Shown: positions 9,808-21,900 of the stretch, one piece after another
Layout of the letters: every line of letters starts with the position of its first letter
How positions within the stretch are numbered: position 1 is the stretch's first letter
DNA from: Saccoglossus kowalevskii
Lineage: Eukaryota > Hemichordata > Enteropneusta > Harrimaniidae
NCBI RefSeq assembly: GCF_000003605.2
Contig: NW_003151258.1
Span: forward strand, 322,083-351,705
Length of the DNA: 29,623 nucleotides
Reading direction: 5' to 3'
The notes under the pieces: model-generated
What the model was told of the DNA's origin: nothing
The model's input: only the letters and a program-made list of their open reading frames with translations
Databases searched by the model: none
Translations under genes and position numbers: made by a program

Positions 9808-11928
9808 ATGAGTTGGCAAATCACTCTCTTCATATATGTGGTGCCTATATTGCTGATGAATTCTGGTACACTGAAAGGATGTCCATCGGAATGCAGTTGT
9901 GAAGACAGTGACGGAGAGTTGCATGTCGATTGTAGTCACGGTGATATGTCTGAAATTCCTTCAAATATTCCATCTGATACTACGAGATTAGTATTGGAAC
10001 ATAATGATTTGACAACAGTACCGGAACATGCTTTTATCGAATTGTATGCGCTGGTTCACATAAACCTCGGATGGAACGAAATTACAGAGATTTCACCAAG
10101 TGCTTTTGCTGGCGTAACCAGACTAACAGAACTGTTGTTGCATAGGAACAGATTAACATCGTTACCGGAAACTGTTTTTAAAGAGTTACCAAACCTCGGG
10201 AAACTCGATATATCCTACAATTCGTTGACATCTTTACCAAGTGAAATATTTCACAACTTGACTGATTTAACAACACTTGACTTGTCCTATAATAATCTTC
10301 AATCACTGAATACATCAATATTCAATAGGTTATACAATCTACTTGAGTTACGTCTCCACACTAATGACATAACATTCTTACCATCATCGATATTCCATGC
10401 ACTGACAAAACTAATATACCTGAGCGTTAGTTATAATGAACTGACATCTTTATCAACCACTCATTTCAGTACATTGACAAGTCTAAGATCTCTCCAACTT
10501 TATAATAATAAATTAACTGCGTTGCCACGTGACATATTTAAACCATTGACTGAATTGACATCGTTACATATAGGTTCAAATCAACTACATTCTCTAACGA
10601 TCCATAATTTAACACAGTTGGTCACCTTGCATGCGTCACATAATAGATTCACAGATATATCTTTTCAACAAGAATTAACAGAGAATGCAGTAAATATTTT
10701 TGGATTGCCAAACTTACGTTATTTATATTTGCAAAATAATGACATTACACATGTACATGGAACAATTGATATTTTCTCCGGAATAAATAGCTTGATGCTC
10801 GGATTCAATAAACTTACGTTTTTACCTCGGCTTCCTTCAGGACTACGTCATTTATACCTCGAAAATAACAAATTTGCACATTTGCCTGACACTATTCAGA
10901 GTTTATCGAATCTCCACAGACTAACTCTTAATAGCAATGAACTAAAACATTTACCAAATTTTCACAATCTAACAGCACTACAAGTGTTAAAGCTCTCAGG
11001 TAATCCCTGGTCATGTGACTGTCACATGACTGCTTTCAAGAGATGGATACACAATAACACACAAGTAGATACCCAACTAATCTGTCAATATCCAATCGAG
11101 TATACCGGAACAAACATTGTCAATTTAACAGTATCAGATCTTCAGTGTCTTCCACCGAAATTTAACAGCCCATTTGAATGGGTGTATGTTGGGATAGGTG
11201 AATCCATAACACTGACTGTTAATGTTAATGTCCCACTTCCACATATCCAGTGGATACCTCCTAGTGGCATTGTAATTGGTACTGAGCGTGATTCTGTAGT
11301 CCGTCTTGAATCAGACGGCAGTCTTTTCATCCCATCTGTACAGAATGACTTAGTTGGGTCATATGTGTGCATTGCGAACTACGATAAGGACCAAGCAGTA
11401 GCAGTACGATATCTACAAATACGTTCTCCACCACGAGCCACGACCACATATGCGACTGGCTTACCGCCCACTACCTACATACCTGAGACGACCAGTGAGA
11501 ACACCTCTCGTAATATATTATTCACAATAAATACCAGAACAAAGGATGCCCATGAAACAGCACCAACTAAACAAGATTATTTACCAACTTATGTAGGATA
11601 CGTTGCATCATTTATTATGGGGTCGGTGATTGGAACAGTTACGATAGTGTTTATACTTTGCTGTCGACGCCATCGTGGTCGTAAACAAAATACAACACCG
11701 GAGAGTACAGAAGTAAACATCGATCTTCCTTCTCGCAATAATTTGAATGATGATCCTAATCTCCACTACGCGGATCTCAGCAATGTAGATTCCAATATTT
11801 ATCAACAATTGACTACGATTAATAACGTCACTGGGGGTTATGTTAATTCAGAGATGTTAGCGACACAAGTGGTTCCTCAAGAAGATGGTGAACATACAGA
11901 GAACATTTATCATTCCGTTGATGCTTGA
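9808..11928 (+). CDS. LRR-Ig single-pass receptor with ITAM/ITIM-like cytoplasmic tail
   Basis: A 706-residue type I membrane protein in one coding exon. Order: signal peptide (about 1-24); LRRNT with C25, C29, C31, C42; about thirteen LRRs (58-400); LRRCT with C403, C405, C426, C447; one Ig domain (449-540) with W482 and C521; a Thr/Pro-rich stalk; a transmembrane helix (about 594-618) followed by CCRRHRGRK; and a tail of about 86 residues. The tail holds LHYADL (Y654) and IYQQL (Y665), seven residues between the two YxxL blocks, then YVN (Y678) and IYHSV (Y701). The start follows an acceptor AG at 9793. In the Ig domain the usual B-strand cysteine is Val471. The architecture suits a cell-surface adhesion or immune recognition receptor; the ligand is unknown. 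The paralogue at 2-181 lies about 11.7 kb upstream. An AMIGO/LRRIG-type neural adhesion role is an alternative. Confidence 0.93.
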   Translation: MSWQITLFIYVVPILLMNSGTLKGCPSECSCEDSDGELHVDCSHGDMSEIPSNIPSDTTRLVLEHNDLTTVPEHAFIELYALVHINLGWNEITEISPSAFAGVTRLTELLLHRNRLTSLPETVFKELPNLGKLDISYNSLTSLPSEIFHNLTDLTTLDLSYNNLQSLNTSIFNRLYNLLELRLHTNDITFLPSSIFHALTKLIYLSVSYNELTSLSTTHFSTLTSLRSLQLYNNKLTALPRDIFKPLTELTSLHIGSNQLHSLTIHNLTQLVTLHASHNRFTDISFQQELTENAVNIFGLPNLRYLYLQNNDITHVHGTIDIFSGINSLMLGFNKLTFLPRLPSGLRHLYLENNKFAHLPDTIQSLSNLHRLTLNSNELKHLPNFHNLTALQVLKLSGNPWSCDCHMTAFKRWIHNNTQVDTQLICQYPIEYTGTNIVNLTVSDLQCLPPKFNSPFEWVYVGIGESITLTVNVNVPLPHIQWIPPSGIVIGTERDSVVRLESDGSLFIPSVQNDLVGSYVCIANYDKDQAVAVRYLQIRSPPRATTTYATGLPPTTYIPETTSENTSRNILFTINTRTKDAHETAPTKQDYLPTYVGYVASFIMGSVIGTVTIVFILCCRRHRGRKQNTTPESTEVNIDLPSRNNLNDDPNLHYADLSNVDSNIYQQLTTINNVTGGYVNSEMLATQVVPQEDGEHTENIYHSVDA

Positions 11929-12990: not shown

Positions 12991-13794
12991 AATACGATAA
13001 TAAGATTCATTTCAACTAAAACAAATTTAACAACGATAATGACTTTTTCTCTATCAGTATGTCTTGGTCATAAGATGTCGATATTTGAAAAATGCAAAGT
13101 AAAAAAAAAAGTATTATAAAAAAACAAAACAATGGTTGTGTTTTCTGCTGGCGTTGTATGCGTTGCATAAAACCAGTGTCGAAAACTGTGCGTTGTGACG
13201 ACAGTAGTGGATTTTTATAGATAAATATATATATCAGTTCTTAACGTAAGTTATGGCAAATTTTGGGTCAGAGCGCCCTCTGATATTTATGGGTAATCAT
13301 CTTTATTTGGAATGGAAGTTTGAGCCCAGCAAGGTGTGATATAACTGGCATAAGCATGAACAACTAATTTGACAGGGAAGTTCTAGTTTTTATATTTACC
13401 TGTCAAATGCATTTATCGGTCCACTGATAAATCTAAATATTGTTTTTCTGTAATTTAGATATATATATATGTATGTATATGGCGGACAGAAGTTGAGTCC
13501 CCCACGGAGAAGAATAAAAAAATGGCAGCGTAGTGATATCATATGGTAACAGCATCGGCAAACGATTCCTTGCTTTAATCGACAAGTGCTTCCCGACTGG
13601 GAATAATCTCAGGAATTTTTTCAACAAAAATGTATGAACAATTTAAAGGATACAATTAACAATAAAAACAAACGTCAACTTACGAACGATAAGAACACCA
13701 CGACCGACATAACAAAAGTAAATAAGCTATGCATTTGACAGAAAAAAACGGCATGCCCACTGAACATGAAGTGTTTGCAGCCTGGTGTCATATA
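12991..13794. other. Intergenic, with a small inverted repeat; no gene seen
   Basis: Contains the inverted repeat TTTGACAGG (near 13369) and CCTGTCAAA (near 13400), and a TTTATC...GATAAA palindrome just after it. Its right end may belong to the Penelope-like element that follows, but the reading frame there is decayed. Confidence 0.45.
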
Positions 13795-14016
13795 CCAAGC
13801 GAAACTTACGCGGTTACCTGAAATGGATTCTAAACAAGGTACAGAAACCAAACAGGCTCATTTCGTAATCGGCCCTTTAGAAATGCGACAGAACTAAGCA
13901 AGCATGTTTGGTCACTCAGAGAAAAAAATATTGAGCATAGAATAACATGGAAAATTTTTGCTCACGGTAGCCCATACAATAGCTCTATCAATATTACTAT
14001 TTATTATGTTATTTAG
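13795..14016 (+). pseudogene. GIY-YIG-type endonuclease relic of a Penelope-like retroelement
   Basis: One frame ending at TAG 14014-14016 reads TYAVT, a stop, NGF, a stop, then TRYRNQTGSFRNR, ATELSKHVWSLREKN and ITWKIFAHGSPYNSS. This matches the pattern Y-x-G-L-T-x-x-x-F-K-x-R-Y-x-N-H-x-x-S-F followed by T-x-L-S-K-x-(I/V)-W-x-L-K found at the C-terminus of metazoan retroelement proteins. I attribute it to Penelope-like elements, which carry a GIY-YIG endonuclease after the reverse transcriptase. Two in-frame stops (near 13822 and 13834) and a His-to-Gln change at the usual NH position show it is dead. The reverse transcriptase itself is not seen. The hammerhead motif 75 bp downstream supports the assignment. 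Confidence 0.62.
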
Positions 14017-14090
14017 TACAAAATAAACCCGTATTTTAATTTGCGAAGTTTATAATGTATGCTCGTTGGTGCAGTGAATTATTAAACATA

Positions 14091-14143
14091 AAACTCCTGA
14101 TGAGTGAGGTACTTGTACCTTACGAAACAGTGCTGTCGAGTTT
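14091..14143 (+). ncRNA. Type I hammerhead ribozyme motif
   Basis: All conserved parts are present in order. Stem I 5' strand AAACTC (14091-14096); core CTGATGA (14097-14103); stem II GTGAGGTAC (14104-14112) with GTACCTTAC (14115-14123), nine pairs with one G-U; core GAA (14124-14126) and A15.1 (14127); stem III CAG/CTG (14128-14130 with 14133-14135) with a two-base loop; U16.1 (14136) and C17 (14137), forming a GTC cleavage triplet; and stem I 3' strand GAGTTT (14138-14143), which pairs perfectly with the 5' strand. Predicted self-cleavage is between 14137 and 14138. A very short stem III is the known hallmark of hammerheads in Penelope-like elements and retrozymes, where they usually act as dimers. 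Confidence 0.85.
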
Positions 14144-14453
14144 CAATATTCATGTAGTTGTGTATTAATTCCGTCTATTATCATATCTCTCTTGTTTTGG
14201 AATAGTCGATTCTCATATCTACATTTATTGCATAACAGTGTTTGCAATACAAAAAATAAGAGAAACATAGCTTTATTATATGATTATATTCACATAAATT
14301 GTTTTAACTCACTTCGATTGTATGTACGAATATTTGTTGATGGATGTTTTCTCAAACACCCTCTGTCGGTGGTACACAAATAATTTGAAAAAAAAAGTTA
14401 AAGAAAAAAAATGTCATGAACTACCAGCACAACCTTACAGTGCCCTTTGAAAT
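14144..14453. other. AT-rich spacer, no gene seen
   Basis: Contains short A-runs near 14388-14412. Its start may still belong to the tail of the Penelope-like element. Confidence 0.4.
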
Positions 14454-14994
14454 ATGTACGCTCGTACTACTATCCTCGGGGGCGGAGCTACGTCACAGAC
14501 GTTCCACGTTGCTAAGACGCGCACCACTGTACATGCATTTCTATGGGCTCTGTGCGCGATGCTGTGGAACGCCGGTCGAGCCGGTGAAAATTCGAAAAAA
14601 CAACACAAACTCGACTTTGAAGTAATCCTGAACAACCAAATTTATATATGTTACACACGTAGGGCTAATCTTGTTATACTGTTCAGAGGAGTCTCAACAG
14701 TCATCCCAAAGTACCGTTTTCCGCGAGTCTTGCGCCTTTGTTTTCACCGCCGTGGGTTGCCAGGCGGTGAAAATGCCCGGATGTCCGCCCCCGAGGATAA
14801 AATGGAATGCTATTCTTAATTTTTGTTACATGTACGCATGTTTTAGCGCACGTAGCAGTGACAATGTTTTATGTCATAATCTGTTACATTCAATCGTTTT
14901 AGTATTAGTCATCGTCGCAAACCACGCCCTCTTCCGGCAACTGATGGCTGCCTCCAAGCGGAAAAAATACTCTGGCGGGCGAGAATGCTATTAG
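14454..14994. promoter_or_regulatory. CpG-rich block with inverted repeats, function unknown
   Basis: GC- and CpG-rich compared with its surroundings. It holds a GC-box-like GGGGGCGGAG (14478-14487), ACGTCAC near 14490, and CTTCCGG at 14931. A perfect 16-bp inverted repeat pairs 14471-14486 with 14784-14799, and an 11-bp hairpin TTTTCACCGCC/GGCGGTGAAAA lies at 14741-14773. The block could be a distal or alternative promoter for SSBP1, a divergent promoter, or an old repeat element. The open frames here are a by-product of the base composition. Confidence 0.4.
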
Positions 14995-18900: not shown

Positions 18901-21900
18901 CAAATTTATTGACATGTGGTACCTAGCATATACACTGATTGGCTCGCTGTGTTTCTATGTAAATTTGTTGACATATGGTACCTTGCTAATACACTGATTG
19001 GCTGGCTGACTGCTTCTATGCTAATAATTATAGGAAGCCAATTTACCACATGAAAATTGTGTATATTTGGTTCAAAAGAATTTATTGAACAATTTGTAAA
19101 ATTTTGGCGGGAATGATCATGAAATCTAAATAGTTATAATAGCTTATTTTGTTTCAGTGGTGTTTTTACCAAGATGATTTACAAGATCATTCTTTTTGTT
19201 TTCCCTGTGTATAATATAGGTGTGAATAAAGTAACATTGGTTGGTCGGGCAGGTCGTGGCGCTGAAGAGAAAGGTTTGGAATCCGGTAGACCTGTTGTAC
19301 AATTTACACTAGCGACTTCTGATGTCTATAAAGATAATAGGACGGATCATGAAGGTGTGTACACAATATCCTCATTTGGTAAATGGATGAAACTGTGGTG
19401 GTTCACATGGATTAAAAAGCTTTGTTTTCAATGTTTTGCCATTGACACACTCAACCTAAAAAATGGGCAAATGTGTGTGAATCTGAGATCCAGCCTATAT
19501 TTTGTATATGCATTGTAGTTTTCCCCCTGAGTCTCAGTTTTTCAAAATCTTCTTTGTTATCTTCCCGGATTTCTCAGTGAAATTAAACAATATGAGAAAC
19601 ATTTGTTGTAATTTTATGCAAACTGTATTCAAATACTCATTCAGAGTGTTTGTTGAGAGGAAAATGTGACATTTCTTTGTGCCAAATTCCTAGAAGGAAC
19701 TGAGGCATCTGACACCTGACCGGATTCAGCATAGTGGTTGTTGTGATCTATAGGACCCACAATCATATCTGTACCCTGTGACCCACACAACTCATTTACC
19801 GCAGTGCATTCAGTAACAGATGTGACTTTGAGGGAACCTTGGTTGAGATGCTTGTGTTCAATCAGACCTCAGTCATAGCACACTAAACTTGCTTTGCATG
19901 TCATTTCAAATATAGATTATGTTTTTAGTCCCAAAATTGAGTGTACACCACACTTTCCCAGCATGCTAAACAGGATGATCCATTTTTTGTGTTCATATCC
20001 TGGGTAAGATTTGACCTTTGACCCACCAATCAACGATCACTATGCGATACAGGATGATCCATTTTTTGTATTCATATCCTGGGTAAGATTTGACCTTTGA
20101 CCCACCAATCAACGACCACTACACTAAACAGGATGATTCATTTTTTTGTATTCATATCCTGGGTAAGATTTGACCTTTGACCCACCAACCAACGACCGCT
20201 ATACTAAACAGGATGATTCATTTTTTTGTATTCATATCCTGGGTAAGATTTAACCTTTGACCCACCAATCAACGACCACTATACTAAACAGGATGATTCA
20301 TTTTTTTGTATTCATATCCTGGGTAAGATTTAACCTTTGACCCACCAATCAACGATCGCTATACTAAACAGATGATTCATTTTTTTGTATTCATATCCTG
20401 GGTAAGATTTGACCTTTGACCCACCAATCAACGACCACTACACTAAACACGATGATTCATTTTTTTGTATTCATATCCTGGGTAAGATTTGACCCTTTGA
20501 CCCACCAATCAACGACCGCTATACTAAACAGGATGATTCATTTTTTGTATTCATATTCTGGGTAAGATTTGATTGTATAAGGTGTTCAATTTCAGTCATG
20601 ATATTCCCTCTCATCATGGTCTATCAAGAGTCAATGTAGAGGATACAAAAATGTATAAACAAATACAATCACTTTTGAATGAAATTATATTGCTCTAGTG
20701 CATTCACTATTGTAAATAACAGTTGTGTCTATTGTCAATATAAAACATATTTCAATGTTCTAGGAAACAATAAATGCAATTTGGGGTTTGGCTTCTGTTG
20801 GAAATTTGATTCTATTAGAGCCAATATGGTGGATGCTACAATATCGTGGTCACTGACGAGTGACCAGTGACGAAACTGGTTGGGAATACTTGGTTCCAAA
20901 TCAAATGTTTAGTAAATGTGCTTTTAGGTTCCATACACATATTTGGGCTGTTCTCATTGCCTTCCTGTCCTATCTTTTTGCTCCACTGACATCAAAGGTG
21001 ATAGAGCATCGCTGTTCATATAAGTGAATGTCATGAAGAATTACATTTCTATCTTTATCTTGAAAACTACCGGCTCAATTGCTTTGATACTTTGTAGGTA
21101 GCTTGGGTAGACCTTTACTTTAGGTGATGGTATGTCATTAATCATCCGTCCGTCTGTCTGTCTGTTGTCCATCCTCCAATACCATTTCTATTTTTGAATT
21201 ATTATTGGAAACTACCTTCTCAATTGATTTGATATTTGGTATGTATGTAGCTTTGGTGGACCTCAGATTTGTTCATTTCATGACAATATCTTCAATTCTC
21301 TATTTTTAGCAAGTATTTTTGTCATTTTTGATCAAAAATGTTATTATTGCCTTTCTGGAAAACCACTACTCAATTGCTTTGATACTTGATATATGTGTGA
21401 CTTGCATGGACTTCTATGACATCAGTTGTTTTTGTGCATTAGGGTAACATTCAAGGCTCTCATAAAACAGCAGAGCTACATGTATTTCAACTGTCAGGTC
21501 ACTTGATTACTATTAGTAAACATCATTTTTTCACAGTTTACAGTTAGTTTTACATTATAGAACAGTTTTCATCAGTTGAATAAAGGATCTTTTCACATTA
21601 ACACATACACTGTATCATATTTTTCCTTCATCTTACATTGTAACAAAATGAGATACTATTTTTCTACTTTTAGGTGAATACCGTGAGAAGACACAGTGGC
21701 ATAGGATCAGTGTATTTTACTCGCCTGCACTCAGAGAAACGGTTTTAAAATATGTCAAGAAAGGGTTTGTAAAGATTATAATCAAAATGTTTCTGTTTTG
21801 TTATGTTAGTTTTATCATGGTGAGGAATTACAATCATGGGATTCCTCGCAAAAAGTTGTTTTGAAAATAAAGGAAAATATACACTCATGTGACCTCACAT

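Follow-up and report, generated by a model that had tools for sequence, protein, structure and literature searches.

Results

Features of the window

The window, by which we mean the whole 29,623-nucleotide stretch of Saccoglossus kowalevskii DNA that was analysed, contains a hammerhead motif within a decayed retroelement copy, together with several other features (Table 1). The original prediction had placed the motif in an intergenic region, which is not proven; the window also holds a gene for a protein with leucine-rich repeats (LRR) and an Ig domain and an exon resembling that of a single-strand binding protein. A tandem array and an inverted repeat, perhaps that of a small DNA transposon, lie 3' of the element, and a different dispersed repeat adjoins its 5' end; stretches similar to this repeat are found near the element in the genomic copies L011 and L014.

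Table 1. Coordinates of features in the window.
Feature	Position	Strand	Basis or remarks
Open frame, 706 residues	9808..11928	+	Leucine-rich repeats and Ig domain
Different dispersed repeat	13382..13459		Just 5' of the element
5'-truncated, decayed retrotransposon copy, Penelope-like by its motifs	13493..14221 (approximate ends)	+	blastn against other genomic copies
Endonuclease relic	13557..13986	+	Stops and frameshifts; tblastn with pieces of L014 and L022, E 7e-28 and 3e-22
Stem I, 5' strand	14091..14096	+	AAACTC; six pairs with 14138-14143 GAGTTT
Core CUGAUGA (CTGATGA in DNA)	14097..14103	+	Sequence reading
Stem II hairpin	14104..14123	+	14104-14112 with 14115-14123; nine pairs round UU, or eight round CUUG
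Core GAA	14124..14126	+	Sequence reading
Stem III, ACAGUGCUGU	14127..14136	+	Nearly self-complementary; between molecules, 10 pairs, of which 2 are G-U
H17 = C	14137..14137	+	Predicted cut 3' of C, from hammerhead rules
Stem I, 3' strand	14138..14143	+	GAGTTT
3' tail of element	14144..14221	+	Internal deletion of ~27-30 bases compared to other copies
Inverted repeat, perfect, 16 bases	14471..14799		Arms 297 bases apart
Exon-like frame	19174..19518	+	Single-strand binding protein match, PF00436, E 5.7e-9
Tandem array	19966..20572		Period 80, ~7.6 copies, 94% matches

The hammerhead motif

Read directly off the sequence, the plus strand at 14091-14143 carries a type I hammerhead motif in which the core and a GUC site are accompanied by all three stems. 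All of the core nucleotides that had been predicted, including the GTC triplet, are present: CUGAUGA, GAA, the A15.1-U16.1 pair, and an H17 that is not G. Stem I is open and loops close stems II and III, as in the type I layout. Stem I is also perfect, as claimed, because the window copy has an A at a position where 27/34 aligned copies carry G and form a G-U pair; an A-U pair is seen there in 5/34. The prediction of a stem III with three pairs and a two-base loop needs correction: a two-base loop would go with four pairs (ACAG/CTGT), and three pairs (ACA/TGT) leave a loop of four bases. The three-pair form with the four-base loop is the plausible one for a monomer. Across aligned copies, 93.7% of cells in the stems were paired, compared to 24.5-45.9% when slid, and covariation was weak: both partners had changed at a single pair (four cells), and 428/500 shuffles reached that number of pairs. 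Copies L080, L072, and L073 have additional bases in stem II, which in L080 are partly self-complementary. A distal extension of stem I past an internal loop, as found in full hammerheads, looked possible from the pairing in both ribozyme families described below, and was rejected because duplex energies were mostly no better than those of shuffles (p = 0.38 for the window, 0.39 for L019, 0.38 for L032, 0.04 for L053, 0.26 for L055, and 0.67 for L063).

A full hammerhead descriptor matched once in the window, at this position, and had no match on either strand of 700 shuffled Markov-chain windows. A looser pattern matched twice in the window (0.12 expected); the additional match, at 9853-9883 inside the LRR gene, failed the full descriptor. 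The covariance-model hit proposed as a check of the original prediction was not obtained. No Rfam model matched the window at the gathering score, no hammerhead model was among the relaxed matches to a 401-base stretch or to the whole window, and on a 66-base slice RF03152 scored 12.9 bits (E 3.5), where its cut-off is 56.3. A search of the whole genome with RF00163 gave no matches and was likewise silent in control genomes (0/14), and is thus uninformative. A standard Rfam scan therefore misses this ribozyme family.

Genomic copies and the host element

In the genome searched (572 Mb in 4830 contigs), the exact 31-base ribozyme core occurs at 25 places and the reversed pattern at none. A loose hammerhead pattern was found at 47 places, compared to one for its reversed control; as judged by eye, 45 of these belong to the family of the window ribozyme, with C1213 a divergent relative and C2789 unrelated. 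At least 42 matches were returned by a DNA search with 14060-14190, in which 40 of 164 candidates were scored, and the true number of copies is probably larger.

Besides the window, we examined stretches of 7.5-9.5 kb round 24 exact copies, and shorter ones at 20 other places. Similarity among the 25 exact copies stops less than ~200 bases after the ribozyme, and its upstream reach is variable. For the window copy, blastn placed the left boundary at 13493, and the right-hand matches stop between ~14209 and 14229. Its endonuclease relic keeps VIY, has an altered YVG, and retains recognisable R and E positions; ~44 C-terminal codons of the L022 endonuclease are not recognisable in it. The motif had been predicted to sit directly after an endonuclease relic. 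At the level of motifs, it does lie behind a decayed PLE-like endonuclease (PLE, Penelope-like element), though not directly, as the last recognisable codons are near 13986, ~105 bases 5' of stem I.

In relatives, YRDDG is followed by CNC..CPL, VIY, YVG, R, and E, an order that we take to fit PLEs. L014 has the YRDDG stretch ahead of its endonuclease, that is, an RT-like part and then the endonuclease, and L069 contains an open frame of 473 residues that matches this stretch. Compared to the L069 frame, the longest available for RT, RT is present in only three of the 25 exact copies (L014, L020, and L027), and the first half of the frame is absent from all of them, short 21-residue antisense matches apart. 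Since few hold RT and none its first half, we consider the exact copies to be 5'-truncated inserts. None of the models in Pfam and NCBIfam recognised the endonuclease or RT pieces, and a PDB sequence search returned no nuclease or RT family for them. The element thus looks like a PLE with a GIY-YIG endonuclease on the basis of its motifs and of the GIY-YIG description in the part of PMC1564403 drawn on here, which the motif order of the relatives fits.

The genome-wide count that had been suggested as a test of the link between ribozyme and endonuclease came out in its favour. Using 101 endonuclease matches, we found one upstream, on the same strand and within 1 kb, at 18/47 loose-pattern places, with a chance expectation of 0.004, and the spacing was 299-315 bp in 13 of the 18. 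The other 29 places had no endonuclease match within 1 kb, for which shorter truncated inserts would account. Retrozyme-like short tandem hammerhead repeats were not seen: among 25 stretches of ~9 kb, only L031 had a second ribozyme copy, direct, decayed, and ~160 bases away. No 5' ribozyme was present in the 25 exact-core copies, all of them 5'-truncated, within up to ~4.5 kb on each side, nor was an upstream ribozyme seen in L065-L068 (L066 being mostly N). None of the stretches examined yielded a full-length element carrying a ribozyme at each end.

Conservation between families and decay of single copies

A second family allowed us to compare the ribozyme with its surroundings. The endonuclease proteins of the two families are 57-65% identical over aligned parts. 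Between L055, of the second family, and L019, identity is 63-65% in the endonuclease DNA, 61% in the 3' UTR, 64% in the tail, and 38% in the bases just before stem I. From C3 to C17 of the ribozyme, 38/44 columns are alike, and an insertion in loop II makes up 3/6 misses; the stem I strands are alike at 4/6 and 4/7 positions. H17 is C in one family and A in the other, giving the second family GUA as its predicted cleavage site, and loops II and III differ. The hammerhead rule permits both the change of H17 and the loop differences. Because the second family keeps the core nearly unchanged amid diverged flanks, we conclude that the ribozyme is under conservation in the source elements.

Individual copies decay neutrally. 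Our decay set contained 39 copies of family 1, namely the 42 matches less two and one partial inverted piece, and was picked by overall BLAST score, a criterion biased towards well-preserved copies. Changes affected 11/504 sites-times-copies in the core (2.2%), including C17 in 4/39 copies, 41/1402 in the stems, and 30/1209 in the 3' flank (2.5%), so that the core and the 3' flank change at an equal rate. The upstream flank had 144/1520 changes (9.5%), a rate taken to be inflated by subfamily differences. An intactness pattern was passed by 33/39 cores, so that most dead copies still have an intact ribozyme. The suggestion that the window ribozyme may have been kept is not upheld by these rates, and nothing indicates that the window copy has an independent function.

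Insert ends and inverted copies

We then used two patterns to read where inserts end, both of which demand an exact match and so favour young copies. A tail pattern starting from the fifth base after the cut found 36 copies, and 36/36 extend 5' past the cut site. A second pattern, whose last base immediately precedes the core, found 34 copies, 31 of which run well past the cut site; among the other three, L022 stops four bases past it, one hits N, and C3624 was read to the first base past the site. No insert end exactly at the cut site was read in either set, which suggests that inserts are derived from RNA uncut at the ribozyme. Exceptions are possible, since L012, which belongs to the exact-core set and is missed by the upstream pattern, has its break at the cut site or one base 3' of it. 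L054 and L056, of family 2, stop inside the ribozyme. The insert-end result agrees with the sections of PMC11167929 considered here, in which hammerhead mutants of an Anolis PLE still inserted in vitro and no RNA-seq ends lay at the cut site. By eye, the optional 3' tail was long in 15 of the 25 exact-core copies, short in seven, and ended <20 bases from the cut site in three.

Element pieces in both orientations occurred within the stretch examined in 10/52 copies, and in L072, L074, and L076 the inverted join falls inside the ribozyme. Rotifer PLEs with inverted copies and palindromic junctions, for which self-priming was suggested, are described in an excerpt of PMC3846280.

Predicted folding of monomer and dimer

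The hammerhead fold of the monomer has a computed energy of -11.2 kcal/mol, compared to -14.3 kcal/mol for the predicted minimum. For two strands, the double hammerhead is at -37.4 kcal/mol and another fold at -40.3 kcal/mol. Folding alone thus favours a different fold by ~3 kcal/mol in both monomer and dimer. In family 2, stem III is ACAGUACUGU, a perfect palindrome. A stem III this short and close to self-complementary would fit cleavage by a dimer that forms between two molecules or within multimeric RNA, and an extract of PMC7761336 indicates that minimal type I hammerheads in PLEs may cleave as dimers. Computed energies and this literature together lend support to the predicted weakness of stem III in the monomer and the better activity expected of a dimer.

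Discussion

The best explanation, to which we assign a probability of roughly 0.85, is that the motif at 14091-14143 belongs to a 5'-truncated, decayed PLE copy as its minimal type I hammerhead, with a double hammerhead as the likely working form. In the proposed mechanism, the ribozyme would sit downstream of the endonuclease stop codon and ahead of the element's 3' end, and reverse transcription would have brought it to the window locus. Two ribozyme copies, in one multimeric transcript or in two molecules, may associate by base pairing of their near-palindromic stem III, and both partners of the double hammerhead would then be cut after GUC (in the window, after 14137). Such cleavage could serve to trim multimeric PLE RNA.

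By its sequence, the window ribozyme is a real hammerhead of the usual PLE type, in a dead copy and in an arrangement already known. PLE hammerheads are characterised as atypical minimal variants in the portions of PMC7229834 and PMC7761336 cited here. The minimal PLE type I hammerheads of Cervera and de la Pena 2014 and Luense et al. 2017, as relayed there, share its layout, very short stem III, and adjacent PLE endonuclease. According to the same portions, they usually lack helix III, whereas the window ribozyme allows three or four pairs, and the GUA site of our second family differs from those described. PAc, a PLE of Anolis that belongs to the Poseidon elements, likewise combines a PLE hammerhead with an optional 3' tail and insert ends off the cut site in the partial account taken from PMC11167929. 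Its ORF begins at stem II, whereas in the window and in L053 the frame opened by the core ATG reaches a stop after 22 and 13 codons, respectively. Metazoan non-LTR retrozymes, as outlined in part of PMC7229834, likewise have a type I hammerhead and many genomic copies; unlike them, the window family is linked to a coding endonuclease and showed no short tandem repeats.

That covariance models yield nothing above threshold would fit a chance match, a reading contradicted by the absence of matches in 700 shuffled windows, by the 25 exact cores against none for the reversed pattern, and by the linkage of the hammerhead pattern to the endonuclease. We give it practically no weight; in our judgement the negative Rfam result counts for less than copy number, linkage, and conservation across the families. 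It is also highly improbable that the host has retained the window copy and that it is active there as a ribozyme: its core and stems are intact beside a broken endonuclease, but so are the cores of 33/39 copies, and changes accumulate at the same rate in core and 3' flank.

More weight is due to a different role for the block conserved in source elements, for example as a binding or initiation site of the element's protein or in fold-back priming, with cleavage incidental or lost. This would suit the 36/36 tail-pattern copies that span the cut site, the 31/34 upstream-pattern copies that go well past it, the in vitro insertion of Anolis mutants in the material from PMC11167929, and the 10/52 copies with both orientations, including those joined inside the ribozyme (L072, L074, and L076). 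However, it is the hammerhead core, together with stems II and III, that the families conserve, H17 varies only from C to A, as the hammerhead rule allows, and the Anolis ribozyme does cut once protein is added, by the same material. On balance we regard this role as unlikely. We are more doubtful still of a specific form of it, in which the main reason for keeping the block is that it offers the element's enzyme a structured site and allows fold-back priming, cleavage being a side activity or a means of withdrawing RNA from the insertion pathway. If it were true, hairpins would shape the making of PLE copies, with inserts arising from uncut RNA and some inverted joins falling inside the hairpin.

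For the preferred reading, a minimal PLE hammerhead that probably works as a dimer, the context is a 2020 review that, in the text drawn from PMC7761336, calls the role of hammerheads in PLEs unknown. On this question the genome offers two diverged families with a near-identical ribozyme core and dozens of inserts, whose ends argue that RNA cut at the ribozyme is not what usually inserts.
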